A stretch of DNA of 64,000 nt from positions 13,954,491 through 14,018,490 of the forward strand of contig OX442317.1 of NCBI GenBank assembly GCA_949358305.1, written 5' to 3'. Under the pieces are notes generated by a model, which worked only from the letters and a program-made list of their open reading frames with translations, did not search any database and was not told the origin of the DNA. The stretch's first letter is position 1. Each line of letters opens with the position of its first letter. This document shows, piece after piece, positions 3,001-63,632 of the stretch. A program made the position numbers and the translations under genes. The stretch is from Strigamia acuminata (taxonomy: Eukaryota; Arthropoda; Chilopoda; Geophilomorpha; Linotaeniidae).

Positions 3001-3008
3001 ACTAAGGT

Positions 3009-22698: not shown

Positions 22699-22702
22699 AG
22701 TC
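22699..22702. repeat. Target-site duplication of E1, left copy (agtc)
   Basis: The satellite bases agtc directly precede the LTR at 22703 and are repeated at 31471-31474 directly after the other LTR. The uninterrupted satellite at 34920-34923 and 40510-40513 has a single agtc in the same context, which gives the empty site. A 4-bp duplication is within the range known for BEL/Pao elements. Confidence 0.95.
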
Positions 22703-23976: not shown

Positions 23977-24034
23977 ACGAATTGCCAGCGAGAAAGAGAG
24001 AGAAGAGAGATGAGAGAAGTCTGCAAAATACACA
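23977..24034 (-). other. E1 3' untranslated end with sense-strand pyrimidine tract
   Basis: There are only 58 bp between the Gag-Pol stop and the 3' LTR. The element's sense strand here is a long CT-rich run followed by GGCAAT and a few bases before the LTR. A normal plus-strand primer is a polypurine tract on the sense strand immediately before the 3' LTR, and none is visible. E2 has the same arrangement at 54535-54580. Confidence 0.7.
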
Positions 24035-31470: not shown

Positions 31471-31474
31471 AGTC
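31471..31474. repeat. Target-site duplication of E1, right copy (agtc)
   Basis: It matches 22699-22702. Together with the empty-site paralogue at 34920-34923, it shows that E1 inserted by integrase, without loss of flanking satellite. Confidence 0.95.
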
Positions 31475-36300: not shown

Positions 36301-36785
36301 CTTTCTACTAAGGTTTAAACACTATTTCAGAACATTCAGAGACATTGGTCTTGTGATGTTTGTGCTAAGTCAACTGTGATGAGATCAAAAGTCTATTCTC
36401 CCAAATCATTGCTTGGATGTTGCTAAAACTTACATTAAAGCTTTCTACTAAGGTTTAAACACTATTTCAAAACATTCAGAGACATTGGTCTTGTGATGTT
36501 TGTGCTAAGTCAACTGTGATGAGATCAAAAGTCTATTCTCCAAAATCATTGCTTGGATGTTGCTAAAACTTACATTGAAGCCTTCTACTAAGGTTTAAAC
36601 ACTATTTCAGAACATTCAGACACATTGGTCTTGTATTGTTTGTGCTAAGTTAACTGTGACGTCAAATGAGATCAAAAGTTTATTCTTTCAAATTATTGCT
36701 TGGATGTTGCTAAAACTTACATTGAAGCTTTCTACTAAGGTTTAAACACTATTTCAGAACATTCAGAAACATTGGTCTTGTGATG
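33336..36785. repeat. 3449-bp satellite block, empty-site duplicate of the block holding E1
   Basis: The satellite left of E1 (from about 21115 to 22702) aligns to about 33336-34923 at a constant offset of 12221. The satellite right of E1 (31471 to about 33335) aligns to 34920-36785 at offset 3449. Linked rare variants confirm it: cagagatattgg at 21378 and 33599, ttaatcac at about 31851 and 35300, and cttgtattg at about 33185 and 36634. This is a tandem duplicate whose only large difference is E1. Boundaries are approximate. Confidence 0.85.
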
Positions 36786-39700: not shown

Positions 39701-42700
39701 TTGGATGTTGCTAAAACTTACATTGAAGCCTTCTACTAAGGTTTAAACACTATTTCAGAACATTCAGAGACATTGGTCTTGTGATGTTTGTGCTAAGTCA
39801 ACTGTGATGTCAAATGAGATCAAAAGTTTATTCTTTCAAATCATTGCTTGGATGTTGCTAAAACTTACATTAAAGCTTTCTACTAAGGTTTAAACACTAT
39901 TTCAGAACATTCAGAGACATTGGTCTTGTGATGTTTGTGCTAAGTCAACTGTGATGAGATCAAAAGTCTATTCTCCAAAATCATTGCTTGGATGTTGCTA
40001 AAACTTACATTGAAGCCTTCTACTAAGGTTTAAACACTATTTCAGAACATTCAGACACATTGGTCTTGTGGTGTTTGTGCTAAGTCAACTGTGACGTCAA
40101 ATGAGATCAAAAGTTTATTCTTTCAAATTATTGCTTGGATGTTGCTAAAACTAACATTGAAGCCTTCTACTAAGGTTTAAACACTATTTCAGAACATTCA
40201 GAGACATTTGTCTTGTGGTGTTTGTGCTAAGTCAACTGTGATGAGATCAAAAGTCTATTTTCCCAAATCATTTCTTGGATGTTGCTAAAACTTACATTAA
40301 AGCTTTCTACTAAGGTTTAAACACTATTTCAGAACATTCAGAGACATTGGTCTTGTGATGTTTGTGCTAAGTCAACTGTGATGAGATCAAAAGTCTATTC
40401 TCCCAAATCATTGCTTGGATGTTGCTAAAACTTACATTAAAGCTTTCTACTAAGGTTTAAACACTATTTCAAAACATTCAGAAACATTGGTCTTGTGATG
40501 TTTGTGCTAAGTCAACTGTGATGAGATCAAAAGTCTATTCTCCCAAATCATTGCTTGGATGTTGCTAAAACTTACATTGAAGCCTTCTACTAAGGTTTAA
40601 ACACTATTTCAGAACATTCAGAGACATTGGTTTGTGGTGTTTGTGCTAAGTCAACTGTGATGTCAAATGAGATCAAAAATTTATTCTTCCAAATCATTGC
40701 TTGAATGTTGCTAAAACTTACATTGAAGCCTTCTACTAAGGTTTAAACACTATTTCAGAACATTCAGAGACATTGGTCTTGTGATGTTTGTGCTAAGTCA
40801 ACTGTGATGTCAAATGAGATCAAAAGTTTATTCTTTCAAATCATTGCTTGGATGTTGCTAAAACTTACATTAAAGCTTTCTACTAAGGTTTAAACACTAT
40901 TTCAGAACATTCAGAGACATTGGTCTTGTGATGTTTGTGCTAAGTCAACTGTGATGAGATCAAAAGTCTATTCTCCAAAATCATTGCTTGGATGTTGCTA
41001 AAACTTACATTGAAGCCTTCTACTAAGGTTTAAACACTATTTCAGAACATTCAGACACATTGGTCTTGTGATGTTTGTGCTAAGTCAACTGTGATGTCAA
41101 ATGGGATCAAAAGTTTATTCTTCCAAATCATTGCTTGGATGTTGCTAAAACTTACATTGAAGCCTTCTACTAAGGTTTAAACACTATTTCAGAACATTCA
41201 GAGACATTGGTCTTGTGATGTTTGTGCTAAGTCAACTGTGATGTCAAATGAGATCAAAAGTTTATTCTTTCAAATCATTGCTTGGATGTTGCTAAAACTT
41301 ACATTAAAGCTTTCTACTAAAGTTTAAACACTATTTCAGAACATTCAGAGACATTGGTCTTGTGGTGTTTGTGCTAAGTCAACTGTGATGAGATCAAAAG
41401 TCTATTTTCCCAAATCATTTCTTGGATGTTGCTAAAACTTACATTAAAGCTTTCTACTAAGGTTTAAACACTATTTCAGAACATTCAGAGACATTGGTCT
41501 TGTGATGTTTGTGCTAAGTCAACTGTGATGAGATCAAAAGTCTATTCTCCCAAATCATTGCTTGGATGTTGCTAAAACTTACATTAAAGCTTTCTACTAA
41601 GGTTTAAACACTATTTCAAAACATTCAGAGACATTGGTCTTGTGATGTTTGTGCTAAGTCAACTGTGATGAGATCAAAAGTCTATTCTCCCAAATCATTG
41701 CTTGGATGTTGCTAAAACTTACATTGAAGCCTTCTACTAAGGTTTAAACACTATTTCAGAACATTCAGAGACATTGGTTTGTGGTGTTTGTGCTAAGTCA
41801 ACTGTGATGTCAAATGAGATCAAAAGTTTATTCTTTCAAATTATTGCTTGGATGTTGCTAACACTTACATTGAAGCCTTCTACTAAGATTTAAACACTAT
41901 TTCTAAACATTCAGAGACATTGGTCTTGTGGTGTTTGTGCTAAGTCAACTGTGATGAGATCAAAAGTCTATTCTCCCAAATCATTGCTTGGATGTTGCTA
42001 AAACTTACATTGAAGCCTTCTACTAAGGTTTAAACACTATTTCAGAACATTCAGAGACATTGGTTTGTGGTGTTTGTGCTAAGTCAACTGTGATGTCAAA
42101 TGAGATCAAAAGTTTATTCTTTCAAATTATTGCTTGGATGTTGCTAAAACTAACATTGAAGCCTTCTACTAAGGTTTAAACACTATTTCAGAACATTCAG
42201 AGACATTGGTCTTGTGGTGTTTGTGCTAAGTCAACTGTGATGAGATCAAAAGTCTATTTTCCCAAATCATTTCTTGGATGTTGCTAAAACTTACATTAAA
42301 GCTTTCTACTAAGGTTTAAACACTATTTCAGAACATTCAGAGACATTGGTCTTGTGATGTTTGTGCTAAGTCAACTGTGATGAGATCAAAAGTCTATTCT
42401 CCCAAATCATTGCTTGGATGTTGCTAAAACTTACATTAAAGCTTTCTACTAAGGTTTAAACACTATTTCAAAACATTCAGAGACATTGGTCTTGTGATGT
42501 TTGTGCTAAGTCAACTGTGATGAGATCAAAAGTCTATTCTCCCAAATCATTGCTTGGATGTTGCTAAAACTTACATTGAAGCCTTCTACTAAGGTTTAAA
42601 CACTATTTCAGAACATTCAGAGACATTGGTTTGTGGTGTTTGTGCTAAGTCAACTGTGATGTCAAATGAGATCAAAAATTTATTCTTTCAAATTATTGCT

Positions 42701-44534
42701 TGGATGTTGCTAACACTTACATTGAAGCCTTCTACTAAGGTTTAAACACTATTTCTAAACATTCAGAGACATTGGTCTTGTGGTGTTTGTGCTAAGTCAA
42801 CTGTGACGTCAAATGAGATCAAAAGTTTATTCTTTCAAATTATTGCTTGGATGTTGCTAAAACTTACATTGAAGCTTTCTACTAAGGTTTAAACACTATT
42901 TCAGAACATTCAGAAACATTGGTCTTGTGATGTTTGTGCTAAGTCAACTGTGATGTCAAATGAGATCAAAAGTTTATTCTTTCAAATCATTGCTTGGATG
43001 TTGCTAAAACTTACATTAAAGCCTTCTACTAAGGTTTAAACACTATTTCAGAACATTCAGAGACATTGGTCTTGTGATGTTTGTGCTAAGTCAACTGTGA
43101 TGAGATCAAAAGTCTATTCTCCAAAATCATTGCTTGGATGTTGCTAAAACTTACATTGAAGCCTTCTACTAAGGTTTAAACACTATTTCAGAACATTCAG
43201 ACACATTGGTCTTGTGGTGTTTGTGCTAAGTCAACTGTGACGTCAAATGAGATCAAAAGTTTATTCTTTCAAATTATTGCTTGGATGTTGCTAAAACTTA
43301 CATTGAAGCTTTCTACTAAGGTTTAAACACTATTTCAGAACATTCAGAAACATTGGTCTTGTGATGTTTGTGCTAAGTCAACTGTGATGTCAAATGGGAT
43401 CAAAAGTTTATTCTTCCAAATCATTGCTTGGATGTTGCTAAAACTTACATTGAAGCCTTCTACTAAGGTTTAAACACTATTTCAGAACATTCAGAGACAT
43501 TGGTTTGTGGTGTTTGTGCTAAGTCAACTGTGATGTCAAATGAGATCAAAAGTTTATTCTTTCAAATCATTGCTTGGATGTTGCTAAAACTTACATTAAA
43601 GCCTTCTACTAAGGTTTAAACACTATTTCAGAACATTCAGAGACATTGGTCTTGTGATGTTTGTGCTAAGTCAACTGTGATGAGATCAAAAGTCTATTCT
43701 CCAAAATCATTGCTTGGATGTTGCTAAAACTTACATTGAAGCCTTCTACTAAGGTTTAAACACTATTTCAGAACATTCAGAGACATTGGTTTGTGGTGTT
43801 TGTGCTAAGTCAACTGTGATGTCAAATGAGATCAAAAATTTATTCTTTCAAATTATTGCTTGGATGTTGCTAACACTTACATTGAAGCCTTCTACTAAGG
43901 TTTAAACACTATTTCTAAACATTCAGAGACATTGGTCTTGTGGTGTTTGTGCTAAGTCAACTGTGACGTCAAATGAGATCAAAAGTTTATTCTTTCAAAT
44001 TATTGCTTGGATGTTGCTAAAACTTACATTGAAGCTTTCTACTAAGGTTTAAACACTATTTCAGAACATTCAGAAACATTGGTCTTGTGATGTTTGTGCT
44101 AAGTCAACTGTGATGTCAAATGAGATCAAAAGTTTATTCTTTCAAATCATTGCTTGGATGTTGCTAAAACTTACATTAAAGCCTTCTACTAAGGTTTAAA
44201 CACTATTTCAGAACATTCAGAGACATTGGTCTTGTGATGTTTGTGCTAAGTCAACTGTGATGAGATCAAAAGTCTATTCTCCAAAATCATTGCTTGGATG
44301 TTGCTAAAACTTACATTGAAGCCTTCTACTAAGGTTTAAACACTATTTCAGAACATTCAGACACATTGGTCTTGTGGTGTTTGTGCTAAGTCAACTGTGA
44401 TGTCAAATGAGATCAAAAATTTATTCTTTCAAATTATTGCTTGGATGTTGCTAAAACTTACATTAAAGCTTTCTACTAAGGTTTAAACACTATTTCAAAA
44501 CATTCAGAGATATTGGTCTTGTGATGTTTGTGCT

Positions 44535-47500
44535 AAGTCAACTGTGATGAGATCAAAAGTCTATTCTCCCAAATCATTGCTTGGATGTTGCTAAAACTTA
44601 CATTGAAGCCTTCTACTAAGGTTTAAACACTATTTCAGAACATTCAGAGACATTGGTTTGTGGTGTTTGTGCTAAGTCAACTGTGATGTCAAATGAGATC
44701 AAAAATGTATTCTTTCAAATTATTGCTTGGATGTTGCTAACACTTACATTGAAGCCTTCTACTAAGGTTTAAACACTATTTCTAAACATTCAGAGACATT
44801 GGTCTTGTGGTGTTTGTGCTAAGTCAACTGTGACGTCAAATGAGATCAAAAGTTTATTCTTTCAAATTATTGCTTGGATGTTGCTAAAACTTACATTGAA
44901 GCTTTCTACTAAGGTTTAAACACTATTTCAGAACATTCAGAAACATTGGTCTTGTGATGTTTGTGCTAAGTCAACTGTGATGTCAAATGAGATCAAAAGT
45001 TTATTCTTTCAAATCATTGCTTGGATGTTGCTAAAACTTACATTAAAGCCTTCTACTAAGGTTTAAACACTATTTCAGAACATTCAGAGACATTGGTCTT
45101 GTGATGTTTGTGCTAAGTCAACTGTGATGAGATCAAAAGTCTATTCTCCAAAATCATTGCTTGGATGTTGCTAAAACTTACATTGAAGCCTTCTACTAAG
45201 GTTTAAACACTATTTCAGAACATTCAGACACATTGGTCTTGTGGTGTTTGTGCTAAGTCAACTGTGATGTCAAATGAGATCAAAAATTTATTCTTTCAAA
45301 TTATTGCTTGGATGTTGCTAAAACTTACATTAAAGCTTTCTACTAAGGTTTAAACACTATTTCAAAACATTCAGAGATATTGGTCTTGTGATGTTTGTGC
45401 TAAGTCAACTGTGATGAGATCAAAAGTCTATTCTCCCAAATCATTGCTTGGATGTTGCTAAAACTTACATTGAAGCCTTCTACTAAGGTTTAAACACTAT
45501 TTCAGAACATTCAGAGACATTGGTTTGTGGTGTTTGTGCTAAGTCAACTGTGATGTCAAATGAGATCAAAAGTTTATTCTTTCAAATTATTGCTTGGATG
45601 TTGCTAACACTTACATTGAAGCCTTCTACTAAGGTTTAAACACTATTTCAGAACATTCAGAGACATTGGTTTGTGGTGTTTGTGCTAAGTCAACTGTGAT
45701 GTCAAATGAGATCAAAAGTTTATTCTTTCAAATTATTGCTTGGATGTTGCTAACACTTACATTGAAGCCTTCTACTAAGGTTTAAACACTATTTCTAAAC
45801 ATTCAGAGACATTGGTCTTGTGGTGTTTGTGCTAAGTCAACTGTGACGTCAAATGAGATCAAAAGTTTATTCTTTCAAATTATTGCTTGGATGTTGCTAA
45901 AACTTACATTGAAGCTTTCTACTAAGGTTTAAACACTATTTCAGAACATTCAGAAACATTGGTCTTGTGATGTTTGTGCTAAGTCAACTGTGATGTCAAA
46001 TGGGATCAAAAGTTTATTCTTCCAAATCATTGCTTGGATGTTGCTAAAACTTACATTGAAGCCTTCTACTAAGGTTTAAACACTATTTCAGAACATTCAG
46101 AGACATTGGTCTTGTGATGTTTGTGCTAAGTCAACTGTGATGTCAAATGAGATCAAAAGTTTATTCTTTCAAATCATTGCTTGGATGTTGCTAAAACTTA
46201 CATTAAAGCTTTCTACTAAGGTTTAAACACTATTTCAGAACATTCAGAGACATTGGTCTTGTGATGTTTGTGCTAAGTCAACTGTGATGAGATCAAAAGT
46301 CTATTCTCCAAAATCATTGCTTGGATGTTGCTAAAACTTACATTGAAGCCTTCTACTAAGATTTAAACACTATTTCAGAACATTCAGACACATTGGTCTT
46401 GTGGTGTTTGTGCTAAGTCAACTGTGATGAGATCAAAAGTCTATTCTTCCAAATCATTGCTTGGATGTTGCTAAAACTTACATTAAAGCTTTCTACTAAG
46501 GTTTAAACACTATTTCAGAACATTCAGAGACATTGGTCTTGTGATGTTTGTGCTAAGTCAACTGTGATGAGATCAAAAGTCTATTCTCCAAAATCATTGC
46601 TTGGATGTTGCTAAAACTTACATTGAAGCCTTCTACTAAGGTTTAAACACTATTTCAGAACATTCAGACACATTGGTCTTGTGGTGTTTGTGCTAAGTCA
46701 ACTGTGATGAGATCAAAAGTCTATTCTCCCAAATCATTGCTTGGATGTTGCTAAAACTTACATTGAAGCCTTCTACTAAGGTTTAAACACTATTTCAGAA
46801 CATTCAGAGACATTGGTTTGTGGTGTTTGTGCTAAGTCAACTGTGATGTCAAATGAGATCAAAAATGTATTCTTTCAAATTATTGCTTGGATGTTGCTAA
46901 CACTTACATTGAAGCCTTCTACTAAGGTTTAAACACTATTTCTAAACATTCAGAGACATTGGTCTTGTGGTGTTTGTGCTAAGTCAACTGTGACGTCAAA
47001 TGAGATCAAAAGTTTATTCTTTCAAATTATTGCTTGGATGTTGCTAAAACTTACATTGAAGCTTTCTACTAAGGTTTAAACACTATTTCAGAACATTCAG
47101 AAACATTGGTCTTGTGATGTTTGTGCTAAGTCAACTGTGATGTCAAATGAGATCAAAAGTTTATTCTTTCAAATCATTGCTTGGATGTTGCTAAAACTTA
47201 CATTAAAGCCTTCTACTAAGGTTTAAACACTATTTCAGAACATTCAGAGACATTGGTCTTGTGATGTTTGTGCTAAGTCAACTGTGATGAGATCAAAAGT
47301 CTATTCTCCAAAATCATTGCTTGGATGTTGCTAAAACTTACATTGAAGCCTTCTACTAAGGTTTAAACACTATTTCAGAACATTCAGACACATTGGTCTT
47401 GTGGTGTTTGTGCTAAGTCAACTGTGATGTCAAATGAGATCAAAAATTTATTCTTTCAAATTATTGCTTGGATGTTGCTAAAACTTACATTAAAGCTTTC

Positions 47501-48854
47501 TACTAAGGTTTAAACACTATTTCAAAACATTCAGAGATATTGGTCTTGTGATGTTTGTGCTAAGTCAACTGTGATGAGATCAAAAGTCTATTCTCCCAAA
47601 TCATTGCTTGGATGTTGCTAAAACTTACATTGAAGCCTTCTACTAAGGTTTAAACACTATTTCAGAACATTCAGAGACATTGGTTTGTGGTGTTTGTGCT
47701 AAGTCAACTGTGATGTCAAATGAGATCAAAAGTTTATTCTTTCAAATTATTGCTTGGATGTTGCTAACACTTACATTGAAGCCTTCTACTAAGGTTTAAA
47801 CACTATTTCAGAACATTCAGAGACATTGGTTTGTGGTGTTTGTGCTAAGTCAACTGTGATGTCAAATGAGATCAAAAGTTTATTCTTTCAAATTATTGCT
47901 TGGATGTTGCTAACACTTACATTGAAGCCTTCTACTAAGGTTTAAACACTATTTCTAAACATTCAGAGACATTGGTCTTGTGGTGTTTGTGCTAAGTCAA
48001 CTGTGACGTCAAATGAGATCAAAAGTTTATTCTTTCAAATTATTGCTTGGATGTTGCTAAAACTTACATTGAAGCTTTCTACTAAGGTTTAAACACTATT
48101 TCAGAACATTCAGAAACATTGGTCTTGTGATGTTTGTGCTAAGTCAACTGTGATGTCAAATGGGATCAAAAGTTTATTCTTCCAAATCATTGCTTGGATG
48201 TTGCTAAAACTTACATTGAAGCCTTCTACTAAGGTTTAAACACTATTTCAGAACATTCAGAGACATTGGTCTTGTGATGTTTGTGCTAAGTCAACTGTGA
48301 TGTCAAATGAGATCAAAAGTTTATTCTTTCAAATCATTGCTTGGATGTTGCTAAAACTTACATTAAAGCTTTCTACTAAGGTTTAAACACTATTTCAGAA
48401 CATTCAGAGACATTGGTCTTGTGATGTTTGTGCTAAGTCAACTGTGATGAGATCAAAAGTCTATTCTCCAAAATCATTGCTTGGATGTTGCTAAAACTTA
48501 CATTGAAGCCTTCTACTAAGATTTAAACACTATTTCAGAACATTCAGACACATTGGTCTTGTGGTGTTTGTGCTAAGTCAACTGTGATGAGATCAAAAGT
48601 CTATTCTTCCAAATCATTGCTTGGATGTTGCTAAAACTTACATTAAAGCTTTCTACTAAGGTTTAAACACTATTTCAGAACATTCAGAGACATTGGTCTT
48701 GTGATGTTTGTGCTAAGTCAACTGTGATGAGATCAAAAGTCTATTCTCCAAAATCATTGCTTGGATGTTGCTAAAACTTACATTGAAGCCTTCTACTAAG
48801 GTTTAAACACTATTTCAGAACATTCAGACACATTGGTCTTGTGGTGTTTGTGCT
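44535..48854. repeat. Tandem 2160-bp satellite block, two copies
   Basis: Rare variants recur 2160 bp apart: aaaaatgtattc at 44701 and 46861, and ctaagatttaaac at about 46361 and 48521. The order of about 15 monomers between them is the same. Edges are estimated to within about 50 bp, where the flanks diverge. A shorter partial copy of the same motif order follows at about 48855-49700. Confidence 0.8.
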
Positions 48855-50799
48855 AAGTCAACTGTGACGTCAAATGAGATCAAAAGTTTATTCTTTCAAA
48901 TTATTGCTTGGATGTTGCTAAAACTTACATTGAAGCTTTCTACTAAGGTTTAAACACTATTTCAGAACATTCAGAAACATTGGTCTTGTGATGTTTGTGC
49001 TAAGTCAACTGTGATGTCAAATGGGATCAAAAGTTTATTCTTCCAAATCATTGCTTGGATGTTGCTAAAACTTACATTGAAGCCTTCTACTAAGGTTTAA
49101 ACACTATTTCAGAACATTCAGAGACATTGGTCTTGTGATGTTTGTGCTAAGTCAACTGTGATGTCAAATGAGATCAAAAGTTTATTCTTTCAAATCATTG
49201 CTTGGATGTTGCTAAAACTTACATTAAAGCTTTCTACTAAGGTTTAAACACTATTTCAGAACATTCAGAGACATTGGTCTTGTGATGTTTGTGCTAAGTC
49301 AACTGTGATGAGATCAAAAGTCTATTCTCCAAAATCATTGCTTGGATGTTGCTAAAACTTACATTGAAGCCTTCTACTAAGATTTAAACACTATTTCAGA
49401 ACATTCAGACACATTGGTCTTGTGGTGTTTGTGCTAAGTCAACTGTGATGAGATCAAAAGTCTATTCTTCCAAATCATTGCTTGGATGTTGCTAAAACTT
49501 ACATTAAAGCTTTCTACTAAGGTTTAAACACTATTTCAGTACATTCAGAGACATTGGTCTTGTGATGTTTGTGCTAAGTCAACTGTGATGAGATCAAAAG
49601 TCTATTCTCCAAAATCATTGCTTGGATGTTGCTAAAACTTACATTGAAGCCTTCTACTAAGGTTTAAACACTATTTCAGAACATTCAGACACATTGGTCT
49701 TGTGGTGTTTGTGCTAAGTCAACTGTGACGTCAAATGAGATCAAAAGTTTATTCTTTCAAATTATTGCTTGGATGTTGCTAAAACTTACATTGAAGCTTT
49801 CTACTAAGGTTTAAACACTATTTCAGAACATTCAGAAACATTGGTCTTGTGATGTTTGTGCTAAGTCAACTGTGATGTCAAATGGGATCAAAAGTTTATT
49901 CTTCCAAATCATTGCTTGGATGTTGCTAAAACTTACATTGAAGCCTTCTACTAAGGTTTAAACACTATTTCAGAACATTCAGACACATTGGTCTTGTGAT
50001 GTTTGTGCTAAGTCAACTGTGATGAGATCAAAAGTCTATTCTCCCAAATCATTGCTTGGATGTTGCTAAAACTTACATTGAAGCCTTCTACTAAGGTTTA
50101 AACACTATTTCAGAACATTCAGAGACATTGGTTTGTGGTGTTTGTGCTAAGTCAACTGTGATGTCAAATGAGATCAAAAGTTTATTCTTTCAAATTATTG
50201 CTTGGATGTTGCTAACACTTACATTGAAGCCTTCTACTAAGGTTTAAACACTATTTCTAAACATTCAGAGACATTGGTCTTGTGGTGTTTGTGCTAAGTC
50301 AACTGTGATGAGATCAAAAGTCTATTCTCCCAAATCATTGCTTGGATGTTGCTAAAACTTACATTGAAGCCTTCTACTAAGGTTTAAACACTATTTCAGA
50401 ACATTCAGAGACATTGGTTTGTGGTGTTTGTGCTAAGTCAACTGTGATGTCAAATGAGATCAAAAGTTTATTCTTTCAAATTATTGCTTGGATGTTGCTA
50501 AAACTAACATTGAAGCCTTCTACTAAGGTTTAAACACTATTTCAGAACATTCAGAGACATTGGTCTTGTGGTGTTTGTGCTAAGTCAACTGTGATGAGAT
50601 CAAAAGTCTATTTTCCCAAATCATTTCTTGGATGTTGCTAAAACTTACATTAAAGCTTTCTACTAAGGTTTAAACACTATTTCAGAACATTCAGAGACAT
50701 TGGTCTTGTGATGTTTGTGCTAAGTCAACTGTGATGAGATCAAAAGTCTATTCTCCCAAATCATTGCTTGGATGTTGCTAAAACTTACATTAAAGCTTT

Positions 50800-53562: not shown

Positions 53563-53566
53563 ATGG
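53563..53566. repeat. Target-site duplication of E2, left copy (atgg)
   Basis: This atgg directly precedes the E2 LTR and is repeated at 59716-59719. It is the E3 Gag start codon plus the next base, so both copies carry an ATG. Reading on from this copy into the E2 LTR gives a stop after about 31 codons. Confidence 0.95.
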
Positions 53567-54534
53567 TGTTGCAACTCGCCACTGCCGTGATGCGACGAGT
53601 TGTAACGCGGTGGGGAATTATTGGCAAATTTCCCATAGGCCTATACTTTGCTTAGCTGAGAGGAGAAGTGAAGTAACTTGAGTTTCTGCCATGGATCTTG
53701 ACTGTAGCTGCTCCAGGGAGTTTGGGGTTAACTCTCCCTACTCAATCATGCTTTGTGTTGAAGGAAATAAAGCTTGTTGTTGAAAATTCCACATAATGTT
53801 TTTATTCCTTTTTAAAACATTAAAATGGAGGCAAAATCCAACATAACTACATCTAATTCTTCATAACAAGAGTGTAACAACTTCATAACAACAACAATTC
53901 TATAGCAACAACAAATTCATGAGGCACCTAGTGACTAAATTCATAAATAACATAAGTTAAAGCTTGCATTGTGCCTCATAATAGAGATAAAATCAACTAA
54001 AATTAACAGAAATCATTGGAAAGAATTATAACAAATAGAATAGGAATAAACTTAACTAAATATGCAAATAACGCATCTAAAGCAAGTCAAATACACTGTA
54101 AAAATGCATTAATTGCAATCCATTACAAAATTAACAATTCCTTCTTTTCCAATGCACCTTTAAAGCAACTCAGATGCTTCAAACCCGTCATTCCGCCTTC
54201 ACAACTGAACTGGGAACAGGACAAGACTTAGAAATAGGTAAACATAGCATGAAAACATTGGAAAACAAGACTAAAAATTCCTAAACCTTGACCTTGTCAT
54301 TCTAAGAGATAAAATACCTAACAAACATTGTCTTTACTGAAAATTGGCACACAAAAAAGACATGTAAAATTCCTATTACAACAGAAAAAGATTAGATATT
54401 TGCTAAATAAATAATACAATTATAAGACCGAAATTAGTAACTCTTCTTTACATTTTCGAACACATAAAATCAAACTACTATCAAATTGACGAGCAGTTGT
54501 GGTCTCTCTTTCCTCCTTTCTGTTGCTCGAAACA
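53567..54534 (-). repeat. 3' LTR of E2
   Basis: This 968-bp LTR looks identical to 58748-59715. It runs from tgttgcaactc to gctcgaaaca on the plus strand. The left tip forms an imperfect hairpin: 53569-53578 pairs with 53596-53605 (9 of 10, loop 17). It is not related in an obvious way to the E1/E4 LTRs apart from its tips. Confidence 0.95.
53801..53806 (-). terminator. Candidate polyadenylation signal in the E2 3' LTR
   Basis: The sense strand reads AATAAA here, about 730 bp into the LTR and 235 bp from its end, a sensible position for the R region. The same hexamer is at 58982-58987 in the 5' LTR. Confidence 0.5.
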
Positions 54535-54627
54535 GAGATTGCCGCCGAAAAGAAAAGAAGGTGAAGAAGAACCTCTTAGCAATCTGAAAACTTCTCATCC
54601 ACCTAGGATCAGCTCCCTAATGACTCC
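54535..54627 (-). other. E2 3' untranslated end
   Basis: These 93 bp lie between the frame's TAA and the 3' LTR. The sense strand has a CT-rich run (about 54545-54575), then GGCAAT and a few bases before the LTR, as in E1. There is no polypurine tract and no leftover of pol. Confidence 0.65.
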
Positions 54628-57615
54628 TTAAGGTAAGCGCAATTTTTTGCGGATCAAACTGGCCACCCATGGAGGTAATCTTCGATTCAAAATCGCTAAA
54701 CTTAAATGTGCCGCTCCATTAATTAGCTTTCTCTTGACTTCTATAGAATTGATTGATTTCTGAAAACAGGTACGACACGTTGGCTTGTATCTCTCTTCTC
54801 CTCCCACAACCTGAACTTGCGTTTCACCCGATATTCGTTTGGTGAACGACGCTTGGTTTCCACAAAAGTGGCATTTGGCATGAAGTTTGACAATAGTTTC
54901 CGCTAGTGGAATGAGATTAGATACTGCCTTGAATTCCTGTCTCTTAAAATCACCATTTAAAGCGGCAATTATTACATTCTTTCCTTCGTTCGCCATTTTG
55001 TCGGAAAACGAATCGATGTCTCCGAAAAATTGCTCTTCGTCGATACCTATCGTCTTGACCGACTCCGCAATTTTCTTGATTTCCTGTAACGACGCGACCC
55101 GAACCGCTGGACGTCGTTGTCCGGTGTGGCTAACCATTTCATCTTTACTATATCTAACGTCTGTCAAATGCTTAACAAGCAGGCAAGAATTTTCTTCTTC
55201 ATTTCGGATTACATTAAGTAAAGCAGTAGTTTTTCCAGAAAACATTGGGCCAATTACTAAATGTATATTTCCCGTGGCCTTTGTGACTGCATTTGATCTT
55301 CTGTGCGAATTGGTGAGTTTCTTGCGACTCCATTTCAATATCTTCCTCCATTTACTTAAACCCTTTTCTTCATCTTTTTTGAAATTTTTTGGAAATTCTC
55401 CTTTCTTTTCCGTAGACTCCAGTGTGTCAGGACTCTGAGAAATCGCCATCTTGCCCGACCTTATCCCTTTAAACGTCCGCTTTCCATCCATTTCCAATTC
55501 GATGGGGACGTCAGGATGCCGTACCTCCAGCTCGCTAGAGCGGCTCGCGGCAAAACGAGAAGCGATGACGCCTTTTGCTCGTACTCCACCCTTTTCGCTT
55601 TTCTCGTCGGGCATTGATGTGGAATTCGCCTGTCCAAACCCGCCTTTGTCCTTTTTTGAAGTGTTGAAAGTCATCTTCTTTCCAGAATCGATCGCCATAC
55701 ACGATACATCTCCCAGTGAGATATCGTCTTTGTAGATGGAAGGCTCTTTTGAGTTAATTTGTCCGTTTAAAATCCATCCAAAAACTGTTTTCATCATTCC
55801 TAATTCTGGACTAATTCTCTTCGTTCCCGCTTGAATTATTTTCCACCATGCTCCGCTTCCGATCAAGACATCTACCTCATCTGACACGGAGGGATGTGGT
55901 TCTGCCATCTCAAGATTAAACGACTTGATTTGTTGCAGCGTTTGGTGATCTATCACTCCCTTTATATTGGGAAGTGTGTCGGTATCAAGAGCAAATACAG
56001 ACACTTTCTGCTTGTCGTGACGAGACTGCAACTCGAATCTAAACACGTCATGAGTTGTAGGAACTGGTTCCTTGTTCAGCAGACACTGGGTCATGGTGTG
56101 ATACGTCTCAATCTTGTTTAGGTGTAATTTCTTTGCTAACCGCTTCGTAATATATGAACGATGACTACCCGGATCGAGTAATCCACGAACTGGGATTGTT
56201 TCGCCACTCTTTCGGACGAACAATGCTGTGAAAACCATTAGCTGGACGTCACTTGAGACCGACAACGAGACGTTGGCGGAGACGTTCTCTTCTTTGGTAT
56301 CAGTTGGCTTTTCCGCATGACCTCTGTTACAAATTGAAGAATGGTGTCGACCACCGCATGATCGGCAACAAAATTTTACAGGGCAGTTACCCACTGTATG
56401 GCTTGGTCTCAGGCAATTAAAGCATAGACGTTTTCGCTTAACGATGTCGTATTTCTCCGAAACTTCCAGATTTGCGTCGCAATTATTGTTGAAATGATCT
56501 CCTTCACAGAAGGCACAGATCAATTTCCGGACTGGACCTGATTTTGGTTTGAATGATTCTTTCGTATTAGACCCGAATGACGTATTTTGCGCAACCGCGC
56601 AAGATGACATGGTCCCTCGTAATTCTTCTTTTTGCTCTCTAGTTGCTGGTTTCTCACTCTTCTTGGTGACTTTCTGACTGGTAAATACGCTATCGTCTGA
56701 TAATTCTGCTACTCTGACTTCGCTTGCTACAAATTCGAGAAATAAATTAACGTTTTCCACGTTTCCTTTGTAAATCCTATGAAATCGTCTTCCCAATTCC
56801 GGTGGAAACTTCCGCAATAATTCCGGGATTAGAAATAATCCAGTAGTCGTAACTGGGAACTTCAACTGTTCTAATGTTCGGAAAGCACCGGTGAGGGACG
56901 TCAATAGAGATTTTACTGGCTTGATTGGGTACAAATCTTTAACTGCTTCAGTTTCACGAATTTTCCTCGCCAGAGCGTTCTTTTGGGCTACTTCCGACCC
57001 AAAAAGTCCTTCTAAGCTACTAAGTGCCATTAAATACGAATCGTTAGTAAGTGGGTACGACTTGATTGCCACTTCCGCTTCCCCGATACAACTTGATTTA
57101 AGATATTGAAGTTTTTCGACGTTCGATAACTCGGCATCGGCGTCAACTGTGGTTGAAAACATATCCATGAAGCTCTTATACTCCATCGGATTCCCGTCGA
57201 ATTTCTGCAATGTCAGCTTTGGAAGCTTTGTAGTCTTCCTTGAGATTATCGATGAGTTGTTCAGAAATCCAGAATTCATTAGCGTATTTCCGCCGGGATG
57301 TGCCCCAAACTTATCCTGCATCTGTTTTGAAAATTTCGTCCTTTGCTTAAGAAGATTGACCTTAGTCCTAATGTCTTCGAGACGTCTCAAACTAAGCAGG
57401 TAATCTGAACGTTCTATCTTGTCTTTAAAGACAGCGAGCTCATCAATAAGGTCACTCAACTGCGCATCTATTGTTGCGTGGAGAGCTTCAAGCTCACCCC
57501 CGTCGAGAACGTTTGCAGATGTCGAGAGCAGATCCTCTGCTCCTTGGGCCTTGGCTTGCCATTGTGTTTCTTTCTCTTCCGCTGCTTCCGCGGTCAAACC
57601 AGCTGCAGTTGCCAT
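54628..57615 (-). CDS. E2 Gag-protease-thymidine kinase fusion, 995 aa
   Basis: It starts at an ATG and ends at TAA. Residues 1 to about 615 are BEL Gag and protease: a DUF1759-like region with LPKLTLQKFDGN, three cysteine knuckles (canonical CCHC at 398-411), D481-P-G, and a FGWILNG segment that in E1 and E3 leads into RT. Similarity to E3 fades after VSCMAIDSG (about 635). A Lys/Ser-rich linker with a basic KWRKILKWSRKK stretch follows. From about 783 it is a TK1-type thymidine kinase: P-loop GPMFSGKTT (789-797), DEEQFF (859-864, E860 the likely catalytic base), CHFC (915-918), VVGGEERY (Y943) and CRTC (947-950). A 45-residue basic tail ends it. TK1 enzymes make dTMP from thymidine and ATP. 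The fusion would place the kinase in the element's particles, possibly freed by protease. The family call is firm; activity and packaging are inferred. Confidence 0.94.
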   Translation of the reverse strand: MATAAGLTAEAAEEKETQWQAKAQGAEDLLSTSANVLDGGELEALHATIDAQLSDLIDELAVFKDKIERSDYLLSLRRLEDIRTKVNLLKQRTKFSKQMQDKFGAHPGGNTLMNSGFLNNSSIISRKTTKLPKLTLQKFDGNPMEYKSFMDMFSTTVDADAELSNVEKLQYLKSSCIGEAEVAIKSYPLTNDSYLMALSSLEGLFGSEVAQKNALARKIRETEAVKDLYPIKPVKSLLTSLTGAFRTLEQLKFPVTTTGLFLIPELLRKFPPELGRRFHRIYKGNVENVNLFLEFVASEVRVAELSDDSVFTSQKVTKKSEKPATREQKEELRGTMSSCAVAQNTSFGSNTKESFKPKSGPVRKLICAFCEGDHFNNNCDANLEVSEKYDIVKRKRLCFNCLRPSHTVGNCPVKFCCRSCGGRHHSSICNRGHAEKPTDTKEENVSANVSLSVSSDVQLMVFTALFVRKSGETIPVRGLLDPGSHRSYITKRLAKKLHLNKIETYHTMTQCLLNKEPVPTTHDVFRFELQSRHDKQKVSVFALDTDTLPNIKGVIDHQTLQQIKSFNLEMAEPHPSVSDEVDVLIGSGAWWKIIQAGTKRISPELGMMKTVFGWILNGQINSKEPSIYKDDISLGDVSCMAIDSGKKMTFNTSKKDKGGFGQANSTSMPDEKSEKGGVRAKGVIASRFAASRSSELEVRHPDVPIELEMDGKRTFKGIRSGKMAISQSPDTLESTEKKGEFPKNFKKDEEKGLSKWRKILKWSRKKLTNSHRRSNAVTKATGNIHLVIGPMFSGKTTALLNVIRNEEENSCLLVKHLTDVRYSKDEMVSHTGQRRPAVRVASLQEIKKIAESVKTIGIDEEQFFGDIDSFSDKMANEGKNVIIAALNGDFKRQEFKAVSNLIPLAETIVKLHAKCHFCGNQASFTKRISGETQVQVVGGEERYKPTCRTCFQKSINSIEVKRKLINGAAHLSLAILNRRLPPWVASLIRKKLRLP
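54741..55269 (-). other. Thymidine kinase (TK1-like, type II) domain within the E2 polyprotein
   Basis: About 176 residues, close to the usual core of TK1. All signatures of the family are present in order: Walker A at 55225-55251, a Walker B-like DEEQFF at 55024-55041, AALNGDFKR, NLIPLAE and TKR segments, two CxxC pairs for the structural zinc, and the lasso with GG-x3-Tyr. There are no introns, as expected for a copy made through RNA. The lasso tyrosine and both Cys pairs are kept, so selection for a folded enzyme is likely. Origin from the host TK1 gene is the simplest reading; capture from a DNA virus is possible, since poxviruses and some others carry the same family. Confidence 0.93.
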
Positions 57616-57941
57616 TTATTCTCGAGAAAGAGAGAATGAGAATAAAAATTCTATTCAACAACTCAATCACTGCTAATTAAATCCCCACGAATATTCTCCG
57701 AACTTCACAGACTCTTACTTATACTTGCTTAACGTTAATTCAAATGCGGTGTGCAAATGAAAAACGACCTCGAAATAAAATGCTAAACTCAACTCCGAAA
57801 TGCCACAGACAAATTGACTTAACACACTATACGTAATACACTGGGACGGAATTATTGACCGCACAAATTGACTTATCCGCATAAATATCTTGATAATTCC
57901 CCCAAAATGCACTTAGTTCGAAATTAATAATTAATATCTAA

Positions 57942-58136
57942 CCGCACAACCGAGATAAATTAGTTATCTTTTACAATATCACTGCACAAAAGAGATAAAT
58001 AGTTATATTTTACAATAACCCCGCACAAAGAGATAATAGCTATAGTTTATAATAGCGCTGCACAAAAGAGATAATTAGCTATCATATACAATAGCTCCGC
58101 ACTTAAGAGATAATAACTTGATATTTAAAATTATTG
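57942..58136 (-). repeat. Minisatellite of five ~39-bp units in the E2 leader
   Basis: Units begin at c[ct]gcac at 57942, 57982, 58021, 58058 and 58097, with spacings of 40, 39, 37 and 39 bp. Each has gagataa soon after, and most have a tatc or tata arm next, so a small inverted GATA repeat recurs in each unit. The units differ at several bases, so the array is older than the last insertion. Confidence 0.8.
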
Positions 58137-58519
58137 ACATAAAAAACCCCTTTTTAAACTCCCCAAACACAGCTCGAAATTGGCAGAAACTTCCTTGAAA
58201 AATCAGATAAAGAATTAATTTAAATAAATATAATTCTTAAATTCTAACAGCAATTGAATTAAAATTAATCTTGTTCTTTTTTCAGCTGCAGATGAACTTG
58301 AAGATTGACATTGCGTTGTGTTTCTCAAATTGTTGACCAGGAAATCGCTTGCTTGTCTCCTTATGTTGACCGCCACAGTAGAAGGACTCCGAACTCGTTA
58401 CACTTGACATAAAATCCACTGACGAATCAACTCCCTGACGACTGCGAAGGATGACACAGCACAAACACACTTCTGTCGCAAATGGCGACAATAATCCAGT
58501 AGAGAAAAATCGAAAAACG

Positions 58520-58670
58520 TGTTGTCACACACTTCACACCACGAAAATCGGCACCACACACTGCTTACTGCGAACTAGATGCCACACACTGCCTCACTGT
58601 GAAGTCGGGAACACACACGCAAATCACCGTGAAATCGACGTCACACACCTGGCTAAAAATGCAATGACGT
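58520..58670 (-). repeat. Degenerate ~29-bp repeat, five units, next to the E2 primer-binding site
   Basis: The core cacacac recurs at about 58526, 58555, 58583, 58612 and 58642, with similar flanks (gaaaatcg, gaagtcg, gaaatcg). The spacing is 28 to 30 bp. It is less well conserved than the 39-bp repeat. Confidence 0.6.
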
Positions 58671-58725
58671 GCACTGAAATCCACTGGAAGAACTGGACGA
58701 AAATCCTGGTTGGCAACAACAAAAT

Positions 58726-58743
58726 CCTTGGGTCACGGTACCA
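58726..58743 (-). other. Primer-binding site of E2 (tRNA-His-like)
   Basis: The sense strand reads TGGTACCGTGACCCAAGG, 4 bp inside the 5' LTR. It matches the expected complement of the tRNA-His end over TGGTxCCGTGAC and then diverges. Confidence 0.78.
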
Positions 58744-58747
58744 AAAA

Positions 58748-59715
58748 TGTTGCAACTCGCCACTGCCGTGATGCGACGAGTTGTAACGCGGTGGGGAATT
58801 ATTGGCAAATTTCCCATAGGCCTATACTTTGCTTAGCTGAGAGGAGAAGTGAAGTAACTTGAGTTTCTGCCATGGATCTTGACTGTAGCTGCTCCAGGGA
58901 GTTTGGGGTTAACTCTCCCTACTCAATCATGCTTTGTGTTGAAGGAAATAAAGCTTGTTGTTGAAAATTCCACATAATGTTTTTATTCCTTTTTAAAACA
59001 TTAAAATGGAGGCAAAATCCAACATAACTACATCTAATTCTTCATAACAAGAGTGTAACAACTTCATAACAACAACAATTCTATAGCAACAACAAATTCA
59101 TGAGGCACCTAGTGACTAAATTCATAAATAACATAAGTTAAAGCTTGCATTGTGCCTCATAATAGAGATAAAATCAACTAAAATTAACAGAAATCATTGG
59201 AAAGAATTATAACAAATAGAATAGGAATAAACTTAACTAAATATGCAAATAACGCATCTAAAGCAAGTCAAATACACTGTAAAAATGCATTAATTGCAAT
59301 CCATTACAAAATTAACAATTCCTTCTTTTCCAATGCACCTTTAAAGCAACTCAGATGCTTCAAACCCGTCATTCCGCCTTCACAACTGAACTGGGAACAG
59401 GACAAGACTTAGAAATAGGTAAACATAGCATGAAAACATTGGAAAACAAGACTAAAAATTCCTAAACCTTGACCTTGTCATTCTAAGAGATAAAATACCT
59501 AACAAACATTGTCTTTACTGAAAATTGGCACACAAAAAAGACATGTAAAATTCCTATTACAACAGAAAAAGATTAGATATTTGCTAAATAAATAATACAA
59601 TTATAAGACCGAAATTAGTAACTCTTCTTTACATTTTCGAACACATAAAATCAAACTACTATCAAATTGACGAGCAGTTGTGGTCTCTCTTTCCTCCTTT
59701 CTGTTGCTCGAAACA
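58748..59715 (-). repeat. 5' LTR of E2
   Basis: This 968-bp LTR is the same as 53567-54534 as far as reading shows. It should drive minus-strand transcription of the kinase fusion. In the other direction its end abuts the E3 ATG, and a frame from a GTG inside it reads into E3 Gag, but no ATG supports that. Confidence 0.95.
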
Positions 59716-59719
59716 ATGG
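59716..59719. repeat. Target-site duplication of E2, right copy (atgg)
   Basis: It pairs with 53563-53566 and is also the first four bases of the E3 Gag frame. Confidence 0.95.
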
Positions 59720-62053
59720 CTTCCACTTCATTTCCAGTTAATCATTCTCAAGAACAATTAGAAGAACTGGCATTTACATGGGAGACAAGAGCAGAGATTC
59801 TCGAAGACATGCTGGACGTCTCCTCAAACCAAACGAATGCAGGGGAACTCGAGGCTTCCTACGAAGCAATACAACAGCAAACTACTACTGTCATCGATGA
59901 CCTGTCAATTCTCCAACCACACCTAGATAGGAAAACTTATTTGGGTTACGTAGTCCGATTGGAGAGAATTGGTGCAAGGCTGATTCACTTGCGGAAAAGA
60001 ATGGAGGTAGCCAGCAAGGCTGTAAAGCTGTTGGGTAATGCTGTTGGTCTGCCACCAGCACAGAACCCTGGTACCTTTATCGGCTCCGGACGGAAAAGCA
60101 ACATGAGGTTGCCAAAGTTTGACATGACGAAATACGATGGAAACCCTTTGCGGTACCAAACATACATGGACATGTTTCAAACTTCCGTGGATGAGAATCC
60201 CGATTTATCTGCAATTGAAAAGTTACAATACTTAAAAGTTACTTGTACCGGCGAGGCGGAGAAAGTCGTGGAATCTTTTCCATTAACCAAAGAAGCCTAT
60301 CCATTGGCTTTAGCCGAATTAAAGCGCAAGTATGGATCTGTAACCACTCAAAAGAATGCATTGATAAAAGCTATTCGAGATGTTAAGGCGGTACCCGAGT
60401 TGTATCCAATAGGTCCTGTGAAGAACTTGCTCACTGCAGTCTCATCTTCAATAAGAACCTTGGAGCAGTTACATGTTCCTGTTCGCACCGGTGGAGCATT
60501 TTTGGTTCCAGAACTCCTCAAAAAATTTCCCGCTAAAATTTCAAAACATTTTCATCGACAACATGAAGAGGGGACAGAGAATCTCGTACAGTTTACTGAG
60601 TTTGTAGCCGAAGAACTTCGCTTAGCCGAGTTGTCCGAAGAGGTGGTTCTTGCGCATCGCTCTCTCACTAAGAAGACTGACAAGGGGAAATTTGAACAAG
60701 ATTCCAAAGACAAGAAGGGTAGCATGGCTTCTTGCACGTCTTCGCAAGGAGAAAGTCCTCGATCCAAGTCTAGTCCGAAAGCACAAAACTCAGAAAAGCG
60801 TACAAACTTAGAGTGCGTGTTCTGTGAAGGCAAGCATTTCAACGCTCAATGTGATGCAAAACTTGATGCTGCTGCTCGAGTTGAAATAGTAAAACGCAAA
60901 AGGCTTTGTTTTAACTGCTTGCGTCGCAACCATTCAGTTAAAGACTGTAACGTACACTTTAATTGTCGTACCTGTGGAGGAAGACATCATACGATAATAT
61001 GCATGAAAAAAGGGATTGATTCGGAAGTTACCAAACCTGCACAGCAGAAGGACGAAGGTGTAAGTGCGAATGTATCGTTAGCTGTTTCAAGTGGTCTGCA
61101 ACTTCGGATCTTTACTGCAAATCTTATCAGGAATTCCGGGGAGCCGTACGTAGTACGCGGACTTATCGATACCGGAAGTCACCGGTCATACATTACTCGT
61201 GCTCTCGCGTCTCACCTGAAATTAAAGAAAAAAGGTTCGATTTCCACCTCAATTCAAAGAGTAGATGATGTGAATCCTCAAGCCACATTTCACGACATAT
61301 TCAAGATTGATTTGAAGTCAAGACATGGTCCGCAAAGAGTCAAGCTGGACATTCTTTGTGCTAATACGCTACCTGCCATTCGTTCAACTAACAATCCAAA
61401 GGTCATTGCACAAGTCCAAAAAATGGGACTTGATTTGGCTGAAGAACTCCCATCTAGTACAAACGATATCGATATTATTCTGGGAGAAGATTGTTGGTTT
61501 GATGTTGCGTTAGCAGGCCGGAAGAAAGTCAATGAAAAACTCGAATTATTTCAAACGATATTCGGTTGGGTTTTACATGGAAAGACGGGAAATGTCGACC
61601 TTTTCGAAGAATCACAACAAGTATCTGGTTGCTACGTCTCGTGTTTGGCAGTCGGGGATCCCTTGGAGAAGATTTGGTCACTTGAGTCCATTGGGATCAA
61701 TCCAGGCGAGAAGACAACCGACTTCATACGTGACAGATTCGAGAATAGTTCCAAACGATTGAAAGACGGTCGTTATGAAGTTGTCTTACCGTTCAATGAC
61801 CACATCAACGAGCTCGATTCCAATTGGTCCAATGCACTTCATCAATTAGCTGCTACTCTAAGGAGATTGGATGGTCATCCAGATCTTCAGAAGAGATATG
61901 ATGATGCGATGAATGCTTACCTCGAAGCCAACCATGCCGAGGTGGTTCCTGTTGACGAGATTAACCAAGAATTATTGTATTATATCCCTCACCAACCCGT
62001 AATTCGTGAAGACCGCGAAACCACAAAATTTCGTGTGGTTTTTAATGCGTCGT
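59716..62053 (+). pseudogene. gag-pol: E3 Gag-Pol, truncated at the start of RT
   Basis: This is an open frame of 779 codons from the ATG that E2 hit. It has a DUF1759-like Gag (LPKFDMTKYDGN from about 131), three cysteine knuckles (about 366-430, with CFNCLRRNHSVKDC), and an aspartic protease with a normal D485-T-G motif. An FGWVLHG segment, the region leading into RT (SLESIGINPGE, DGRYEVVLPF) and FRVVFNAS follow. There the E5 LTR begins, adding 19 foreign codons before a stop at 62112. No RT palm, RNase H or integrase remains. E2 also cuts the frame off from its own promoter, which lies to the left of 53566. There are no stops or frameshifts before the break. It is closer to E2 than to E1 in several Gag segments by eye. 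Confidence 0.92.
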
Positions 62054-63632
62054 TGTTGCGAGCAAGAACGCAACAAAAAGGATCTGGAGATTTCACGTTG
62101 TTCATCTTCTGAAAGAAAGAAAAGGCTTTTTAATTTTGTTGTCAAGTTTAGATAGATTTTTAACACATATCTGACATGCCCAGTTGGTTTGCCGCTTTGT
62201 TGTCACGATCCTGGTAGTTCAAGAGGGTTGTCACTTCGCCTGCCACACCTGGAATGTTTGAAAGTTGTGTTTTTAGTCTTTTGTAATTAATTTATGTGTC
62301 TTTTTCACGTTTCTGAGTTATTTCTAGTATTTGTAAGTTCTCTCCTGTTTCCAGTTCACTTGCGAAGGAGATAGGCGTGCATCGGCAAGATGGCCGCCAT
62401 AGCGCAAGTGAACTGGGAGATGGGAAGAACCTGAAATAAGCACAATTGTAGTTTTTGGTGCTTATTTTGCTTGTGATTTAATTTATACTAACTTGTATTG
62501 GTGTTTAAGGTAGTCCACAGGTGTCTTGGGTCGCTGGATGGGCGTTGGACATCGTTTGTGAGCGTTTGCGAGCGTCGGGCGTGAGCGTACGCCTTGCGAC
62601 GCCTCTCGTGGTCGTGTGGGTCCTGCAAATGAGTTGAATTGGTCGGGTTTCAATGCCCAAGCACTGGGAAAGCTGTACTGACCGTTCTAAGACGCAGATC
62701 CATCGTTGAGAAGGCCTGTGAGTCGCTCGCGACCTTGTTTGGCTCCATTCACGTCATTTTAGCAGTTGCATGGTCGCCATCTTGGATTTGGTGCTGCACT
62801 GTTGCCCTGTTATTATTTCTTTTGGGGTTTTGAGGAGACCTGGACATAGGGAATATTTACTAGTTATTGTTTGTATAAATTACCAATATTAAGGGTTGTT
62901 AATCTAAGCTTTTACCTTTGTTATTGTATGGTTGTTACGGGTTAAGGTTTGTGACACTTTGCGCCCTCTTTTGGTGGCAATTGGGGTTTGGGCTCAGCAT
63001 TGTGTTTTGAGTGCAGTTAATGTTAGTTTTAGCCTTTGAATTATCTGTTAAGTTTGAGTGAAGTGCTGTTTGCACAGGTCATACTGTTTTCAAGGTGTTA
63101 GGTTAAGTTTTGCCTTTATTTATGTTAAGTTTGACATCTGTTGTCTATATACGGAAACCTTGTTGGCACTATTGTTATTATTCAAATCTGTATTGTTTGG
63201 TCACTGACATTTATTGTAATCAGGTGACCAGTTGTTAAGAGTAGGTTGCTAAAGAAGCAACTCAGTTGTTATCAGTTGTTAAGTATTAAATCCAGTTGAT
63301 ATTTTTCCTCCTTCTTTGGATAATTTATTCCTGGGTTTCTTTTACTTCAATAAACATGATGACTTGTGAGTAGAGAGCTTTGCCTGCTCTCCTCCTCCCT
63401 GGGAGCCCGGAATTTCTACCCAGCAGCTAAAGAGGTTTTGCCAATCACTTTATCTAGATGCAGTCAGGCCTAGTTTCATGCAGTCAGGCCTAATCCTTCT
63501 TCAAGTTAGGCTTGGGCTCAGAGAGAGGATTTCAGCTTGTTTCATCAACCACTATACAGTCTCGGGCGGTTTCCAGAGTTTGGTGACCAATTCGCCAGTC
63601 CTCCCCTGTGAGATCCAAGGTTGTTTGCTACA
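62054..63632 (+). repeat. 5' LTR of E5
   Basis: The LTR is about 1579 bp, from tgttgcgagc to tttgctaca. The right edge is inferred from the TACA tip 13 bp before the primer-binding site, since no second copy is available. The left tip has a perfect 7-bp inverted repeat, TGTTGCG...CGCAACA (62054-62075). TATATA at 63146 and AATAAA at 63349-63354 are candidate promoter and polyadenylation signals. A 15-bp direct repeat, atgcagtcaggccta, occurs at about 63459 and 63479. Confidence 0.65.
62337..62430. repeat. Inverted repeat with a YY1-like core in the E5 LTR
   Basis: Arms 62337-62364 and 62403-62430 pair, perfectly over 14 bp (62351-62364 with 62403-62416) and partly beyond. The 38-bp loop holds aagatggccgccat, whose complement includes ATGGCGGC, like YY1 sites found in several retroelement promoters. 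The regulatory role is a guess. Confidence 0.6.

Follow-up and report, generated by a model that had tools for sequence, protein, structure and literature searches.

How a complete thymidine kinase (TK) comes to lie in one open frame with the Gag and protease of a retrotransposon, and what it does there, is the question raised by a 64,000-nucleotide stretch of the genome of the centipede Strigamia acuminata (contig OX442317.1 of GCA_949358305.1, positions 13,954,491 to 14,018,490; hereafter the window, to which all coordinates refer). The element concerned is flanked by long terminal repeats (LTRs), sits on the reverse strand within another BEL element (E3), and shares the window with a further one (E1). 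For its structure we can be highly confident of the answer: this is a non-autonomous BEL/Pao lineage in which a cellular kinase of the TK1 type stands behind Gag-protease in place of pol. Its parts are as follows.

53567..59715, reverse strand: the whole TK element, LTR to LTR
58748..59715, reverse strand: 5' LTR, 968 bp, identical to the 3' LTR (0 of 968 positions differ)
58724..58743, reverse strand: primer-binding site TGGTACCGTGACCCAAGGAT, a motif present 91 times in the genome (reversed control 0)
54628..57615, reverse strand: Gag-protease-TK frame, 995 residues in one open frame
56770..57201, reverse strand: Gag domain DUF1759, residues 139-282 (Pfam, E 3.1e-15)
56329..56517, reverse strand: three CCHC zinc knuckles, residues 367-429 (motif search)
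55759..56178, reverse strand: aspartic protease region DUF1758, residues 480-619 (Pfam, E 9.5e-5)
55273..55758, reverse strand: protease-TK linker, residues 620-781, fast evolving
54763..55272, reverse strand: thymidine kinase domain PF00265, residues 782-951 (E 6.9e-54, whole profile 1-176)
54631..54762, reverse strand: C-terminal tail, residues 952-995 (44 residues), with predicted helices and alignable among the BEL-TK lineages
54535..54550, reverse strand: TTTCGGCGGCAATCTC, adjoining the 3' LTR at the position of a polypurine tract, not purine-rich, kept in lineages A and B (see below)
53567..54534, reverse strand: 3' LTR, 968 bp, TG...CA, identical to the 5' LTR
53563..53566, no strand: target duplication, first copy, ATGG on the forward strand (CCAT in sense)
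59716..59719, no strand: target duplication, second copy, the same ATGG as at the gag start of E3

A preliminary description of this DNA had claimed a BEL Gag and protease joined in frame to a full TK1-type kinase, the motifs GPMFSGKTT, DEEQFF, CHFC, VVGGEERY and CRTC, and LTRs with a perfect target duplication, and all of this is borne out: the 995-residue frame contains the five motifs, the search against the TK family that it had proposed matches the complete PF00265 profile, and the two identical LTRs carry CCAT on both outer flanks. The Gag-protease part has the features expected of BEL/Pao, namely a DUF1759-type Gag, zinc knuckles and a DUF1758-type protease, the last with the motif LLDPGS at residue 479, of which DPGS is also found in E1. 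Gag identity is 42% to E3 and 38% to E1. The stretch preceding the 3' LTR would be an unusual second-strand start. A stretch of E1 at 23978-24000 resembles it.

The kinase part is a complete TK domain: it has the P-loop, the catalytic glutamate and all four zinc cysteines, and the invariant and nearly invariant TK positions are kept in the BEL rows of the alignment. Its best matches among solved structures are human TK1 and then poxvirus TK. An AlphaFold model of residues 771-995, made from a 34-row alignment, has a mean pLDDT (predicted local distance difference test) of 91.4, and Foldseek places human TK1 first (1xbt, E 1.6e-19, TM-score 0.93 by target), so that by the model the part has the TK1 fold. 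By eye, the tail has no clear counterpart in the aligned non-BEL TKs.

Where the same description spoke simply of a BEL/Pao retrotransposon, the Gag-protease and the LTRs support the label, yet the element is not a complete one, and the absence of reverse transcriptase (RT), RNase H and integrase had been overlooked. A tblastn search with BEL Gag-Pol proteins matched the gag-protease and found neither RT nor integrase, nor any other match to BEL pol, between the LTRs; the 995-residue frame terminates with the TK, and in the alignment to E1 the TK starts at the very point where E1 continues into RT. The TK element is thus a non-autonomous BEL/Pao derivative and not a complete member, and having no pol of its own it needs a helper, since it has moved recently all the same (six of six LTR pairs identical, with differing target duplications). 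Of the loci considered for that part (L numbers denote loci, C numbers contigs), L031 is the 5' part of a lineage A element cut off by a copia frame, and L032 is a piece of gag.

That the fusion is not a peculiarity of one locus is clear from the genome. The assembly qcStrAcum1.1, from one male, comprises 158 scaffolds and 237,534,282 bp and was made from HiFi reads at 98-fold coverage with a quality value (QV) of 59.6 (PMC10556566); the copy searched holds 237,517,015 bases in 157 contigs, one sequence fewer. A Pfam TK search gave 205 candidates, of which the 150 higher-scoring were scored and 55 lower-scoring were not. By frame length, 92 of the 150 are of the BEL type and 84 of these are full length (34 of 1013 residues, 32 of 995, 13 of 1009 and 5 of 1002), with a stop inside the TK in one of the 92. 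The sorting rests on length, and the sequence itself was checked at 13 loci (the window, L004-L014 and L028; L001-L003 are pieces of L009-L011). By tblastn, Gag adjoins the TK in the window and at L009, L010, L012, L013, L014 and L028; at L011 just a short stretch preceding the TK was matched, the end of the protease-linker part, and at L004-L008 the TK lies in frames of at least 714 residues that run off the end of the fetched piece. L010 has lost the first part of Gag. Of the 91 primer-site matches, 74 are followed on the same strand by a TK lying 3.1-5.2 kb downstream. The search for other copies with the same Gag-TK junction, which the preliminary description had called for, therefore finds them in abundance.

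Both LTRs could be read in six elements (the window, L009, L012, L013, L014 and L028), each with LTRs, primer-binding site and a target duplication of 4-5 bp; the LTR pairs are identical, and the target duplications are, in that order, CCAT, ACAG, GTTGA, TTTG, GACC and CAAC. Identical pairs with differing duplications mean that these copies go back to separate recent insertions and not to the duplication of one locus. L013 and L014 form a subgroup of lineage A with shorter LTRs (715 and 724 bp) and a different C-terminus (the 1002-residue frame).

Three lineages carry the fusion: A, with the window copy; A2, of which L010 is the sole copy read; and B, with L012 and L028. Relative to the window copy the TK is 78% identical in A2 and 55% in B, and the Gag-protease of B is 58% identical. 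The linker and tail can be aligned across all three, so a single capture before their split is the simplest reading, and the sequences show the Gag-TK fusion to be older than that split. Purifying selection on the TK between lineages is likewise shown by the comparison of coding sequences. Between the window and L010 the TK has dN (replacement) 0.122, dS (silent) 1.016 and a ratio of 0.12 (all such values are Nei-Gojobori estimates without standard errors), with 0.12 for Gag-protease, 0.45 for the linker and 0.32 for the tail; between L012 and L028 dN/dS is 0.14 for TK, 0.06 for Gag-protease and 0.61 for the linker, the 1.7 for the tail resting on 7 changes. Between the window and L012 silent sites are saturated in TK and Gag. 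All three lineages retain the P-loop, DE(G/E)QFF and the four zinc cysteines, so that in place of the dN/dS near 1 with broken catalytic residues which was to be checked for, low ratios and intact sites were obtained.

Several points nevertheless weigh against the reading of a conserved kinase in a helper-dependent lineage. No helper has been established: L030, reached through the primer-site motif, matches that site at all but one position and contains frames for gag and pol. Its LTR end is different, however, and no matching LTR was found downstream, so it does not convince as the helper. The window copy has a G to E change next to the catalytic glutamate; its DEEQFF is particular to it, the remaining BEL-TK rows read out being DEGQFF, and the site varies in some aligned TKs. 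Decayed copies may be hidden among the 55 unscored candidates. Lastly, between the youngest copies (window against L009 and against L014) the TK shows 2 replacement and 0 silent changes, a number too small to reveal selection among the newest copies, so that it is shown only from one lineage to another.

Of the 92 BEL-TK matches, 72 fall in six zones totalling 10.2 Mb, a further 18 on contigs with numbers higher than 13, and the other 2 elsewhere; the Y carries 19 (by our own matching of contigs to chromosomes C13 is the Y, C12 the X, C1 chromosome 1 and C5 chromosome 4). A 140-bp satellite is present at 9 of 13 BEL-TK loci and at 0 of 13 non-BEL TK loci; the BEL-TK loci lacking it are L004, L005 and L006, where 3.5 kb was fetched, and L010, where 9.9 kb was. 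The copies have moved recently, and mostly into zones of the 140-bp satellite. A 35-base stretch of this satellite has 4959 matches in the genome, and those listed fall around 15.6 Mb of C3, a place that yielded no BEL-TK, and from 12.19 Mb onwards on C5, which is inside a zone. For comparison, of the 40 TKs of the 190 family (below) 6 are inside zones, most non-BEL TKs lie outside, and of the 150 BEL pol matches scored (from 1068 candidates) none is inside, two being just outside the zone edge on C8 (at 6.761 and 6.795 Mb against 6.80). The zones were however drawn from the BEL-TK copies themselves after these had been seen, so the Fisher p of 3e-56 for the concentration is not a fair probability and the zone p-values overstate the case; they are further weakened by the two BEL pol matches so near the C8 edge, by the scoring of 150 BEL pol matches out of 1068 candidates, and by E1, E3 and L030, which are BEL elements inside zones. 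The zones may be centromeres.

As to where the kinase came from, a tree of 63 rows places the TKs of the S. acuminata genome in one group (99/96), within which the BEL TKs group together (94/84, just under the tool's mark) as the sister group of three other TK repeat families (100/96); it leaves the place of the S. acuminata group among the 48 outside rows without resolution. The sole outside match named by species is a millipede TK, 46% identical. Both results fit a capture from within the lineage of the centipede itself. No donor gene turned up in the TK profile search of the genome, in which an intron-split gene would score low.

The largest of the other families, the 190 family (40 of the 150 TK matches), is a dispersed repeat with an intact TK frame of about 185-190 residues (L024, L025, L026, L029) in which neighbouring segments recur with the TK, in L025 to at least 7.8 kb beyond it; no LTR, terminal inverted repeat or other known gene was found in it. 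A second TK repeat (L018-L023 and L027; 13 of 150) has frames of 216-269 residues, or longer ones through runs of N, extends over about 9 kb or more, and has several copies on small scaffolds with N gaps. The dN/dS of the TK between this 216 family and the 190 family is 0.12. A third (L015-L017; 5 of 150) has frames of 221-239 residues without introns, lies in repeats, and could be either a set of retrocopies or a gene close to the host TK1. A second capture, by copia, was considered for the copia pol frame upstream of the TK in L025; this stretch is common to neither L024 nor L026 and so is not part of the 190 repeat, being probably a nested insertion. Ribosomal DNA or RNA genes as carriers of the non-BEL repeats were not supported either, with no Rfam match in 12 loci and no transfer RNA in 14.

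Outside this genome, no further Gag-TK fusion came to light. A search with the TK part among proteins of suitable length brought up 1653 candidates, none of them at E <= 0.001, in a procedure where relatives must share 5-letter words; the full-length frame, with words drawn from its first 500 residues, gave 25 proteins, relatives of BEL Gag; and of 6 pattern matches in viral contigs none was confirmed. The open-licence PMC literature searched yielded no LTR retrotransposon with a thymidine kinase. A nematode tdk in PMC7593179 is an entry in a table of horizontal-transfer candidates and is unrelated.

What a polymerase-less element would gain from the kinase can be put as follows. Gag-TK would co-assemble with Gag-Pol supplied by a BEL helper able to use the same primer site and ends, and the kinase, being made at the level of Gag, would turn thymidine into thymidine monophosphate in or near the particle; thymidine triphosphate (dTTP), and its proportion over deoxyuridine triphosphate, would thereby be raised for the helper's RT, and the element would provide substrate instead of the enzymes it has lost. 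This parallels dUTPase, which is reported in retroviruses and in LTR elements of bdelloid rotifers (PMC5408684) and sets a precedent for enzymes of nucleotide metabolism in such elements. A role in dTTP supply, though the likeliest of the readings, seems to us about evenly balanced, and travel in the particle and action in resting or late germ cells, as the preliminary description proposed, may be part of it. The wider idea is of a parasite of retrotransposons that gives something back: a satellite-inserting BEL derivative, deprived of pol and relying on helpers for reverse transcription, that would keep its captured TK because dTTP in shared particles speeds copying, with TK genes of the same group multiplied in other repeats, so that nucleotide salvage would be a recurrent cargo of mobile DNA. 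We offer this tentatively, as possible but doubtful.

The kinase could also have been kept for its shape. TK1 forms tetramers, and an oligomeric TK might help Gag-TK enter helper particles without catalysis mattering at all; the position of the TK directly behind Gag-protease in every BEL-type copy read, and the common C-terminal tail of the BEL TKs with its predicted helices, would suit such a scaffold. But a pure scaffold needs no active site, and the retention of P-loop, DE(G/E)QFF and zinc cysteines in three lineages makes this rather unlikely. The kinase might also act on the host cell, so that in germ or dividing cells the pools of thymidine nucleotides would shift to the benefit of element or host, in keeping with which TKs have multiplied with intact frames in three non-BEL families, two of them compared at a dN/dS of 0.12, and mostly outside the BEL zones. 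We know of no host effect of the kinase, and since in the BEL lineages selection tracks the Gag-protease of a moving element, a host-directed function is improbable.

Neither chance nor error accounts well for the pattern. A functionless passenger, recently transduced and amplified by accident, would fit the youth of the copies read, with their identical LTR pairs, and has precedent in plant LTR elements such as Bs1, which carry host fragments without full frames (PMC13317346); with lineages A and B differing at 45% of TK residues and both open, a TK ratio of 0.12 at a dS of about 1, and a stop in a single copy of 92, it is very hard to sustain. An artefact of assembly might be suspected because many copies lie in satellite, the sequence hardest to assemble. 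Yet copies occur on eight chromosome-size contigs as well as on unplaced scaffolds, six target duplications differ, and the reads are HiFi at the depth and QV given above, so the objection of an assembly join at the Gag-TK junction is not upheld and we regard such an origin as scarcely credible.

Several known systems can be compared with this Gag-TK lineage. Acutely transforming retroviruses carry Gag-oncogene fusions with a host gene in place of pol, need a helper and are short-lived. The centipede element has the same arrangement and the same need, but its fusion has lasted through a split into lineages whose TKs now differ at 45% of residues. Like the plant CR centromeric retrotransposons it is an LTR element concentrated in satellite zones, although it is BEL/Pao, non-autonomous and kinase-bearing, and its zones are candidate centromeres. 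With the TK1-type kinases of animals and poxviruses it shares fold, P-loop, catalytic glutamate and zinc cysteines, but not the fusion behind Gag-protease or the extra tail, which by eye is without clear counterpart in non-BEL TKs. Likewise LTR elements with an additional enzyme are Juno, Vesta and TelKA of bdelloid rotifers, bearing a dUTPase, a DEDDy exonuclease or a GDSL esterase, the dUTPase lying in the polyprotein and serving thymidine-nucleotide balance (PMC5408684); these keep pol and are not BEL, whereas the centipede element has a thymidine kinase and no pol. Maize Bs1 likewise carries transduced host coding sequence, but it has pieces from three host genes, of which none forms a full frame (PMC13317346), in contrast to one whole enzyme that shows low dN/dS in several lineages. 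Both the carriage of enzymes by LTR elements and the transduction of host genes are therefore known already, and what is new, to us at least, is the thymidine kinase, its position replacing pol and the lasting selection on it. Whether animal retroelements are limited by nucleotide supply has yet to be settled, and most approaches to it have used dUTPase or the host factors that lower deoxynucleotide levels. In this centipede a host salvage enzyme has stayed in frame with Gag while an element family split into three lineages, and one genome contains 84 full-length frames. It is also an instance of a Gag-cargo fusion that lacks pol and yet persisted as a lineage rather than coming to a dead end, in a system where selection, activity and tissue of expression are directly testable.

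The surroundings of the element in the window consist of a 140-bp satellite array with E1 inside it, followed by the nested TK element and E3.

1..50796, no strand: 140-bp satellite array, interrupted by E1
22703..31471, reverse strand: E1, BEL element within the satellite, with a gag-pol frame and two 1275-bp LTRs that are identical
59720..62112, forward strand: gag-protease frame of E3, the BEL element into which the TK element inserted

Elsewhere, seven LTR matches at about 96% occur at C9:946662-1051107, several of them 3.1 kb apart. A shorter derivative lacking the TK was considered here and is rejected for the pair that was read, L033, where nothing else of the element was found between the two LTRs; the C9 matches therefore look like solo LTRs in a duplicated array. 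Within the TK element, the leader between primer site and gag contains a short tandem repeat (57941-58115, unit 39 or 76 bases). The insertion point of the TK element is the gag start of E3, and the similarity of E3 to E1 ends shortly past the start of what we take to be the RT region; because it ends so soon there, E3 may be a second pol-less BEL derivative.

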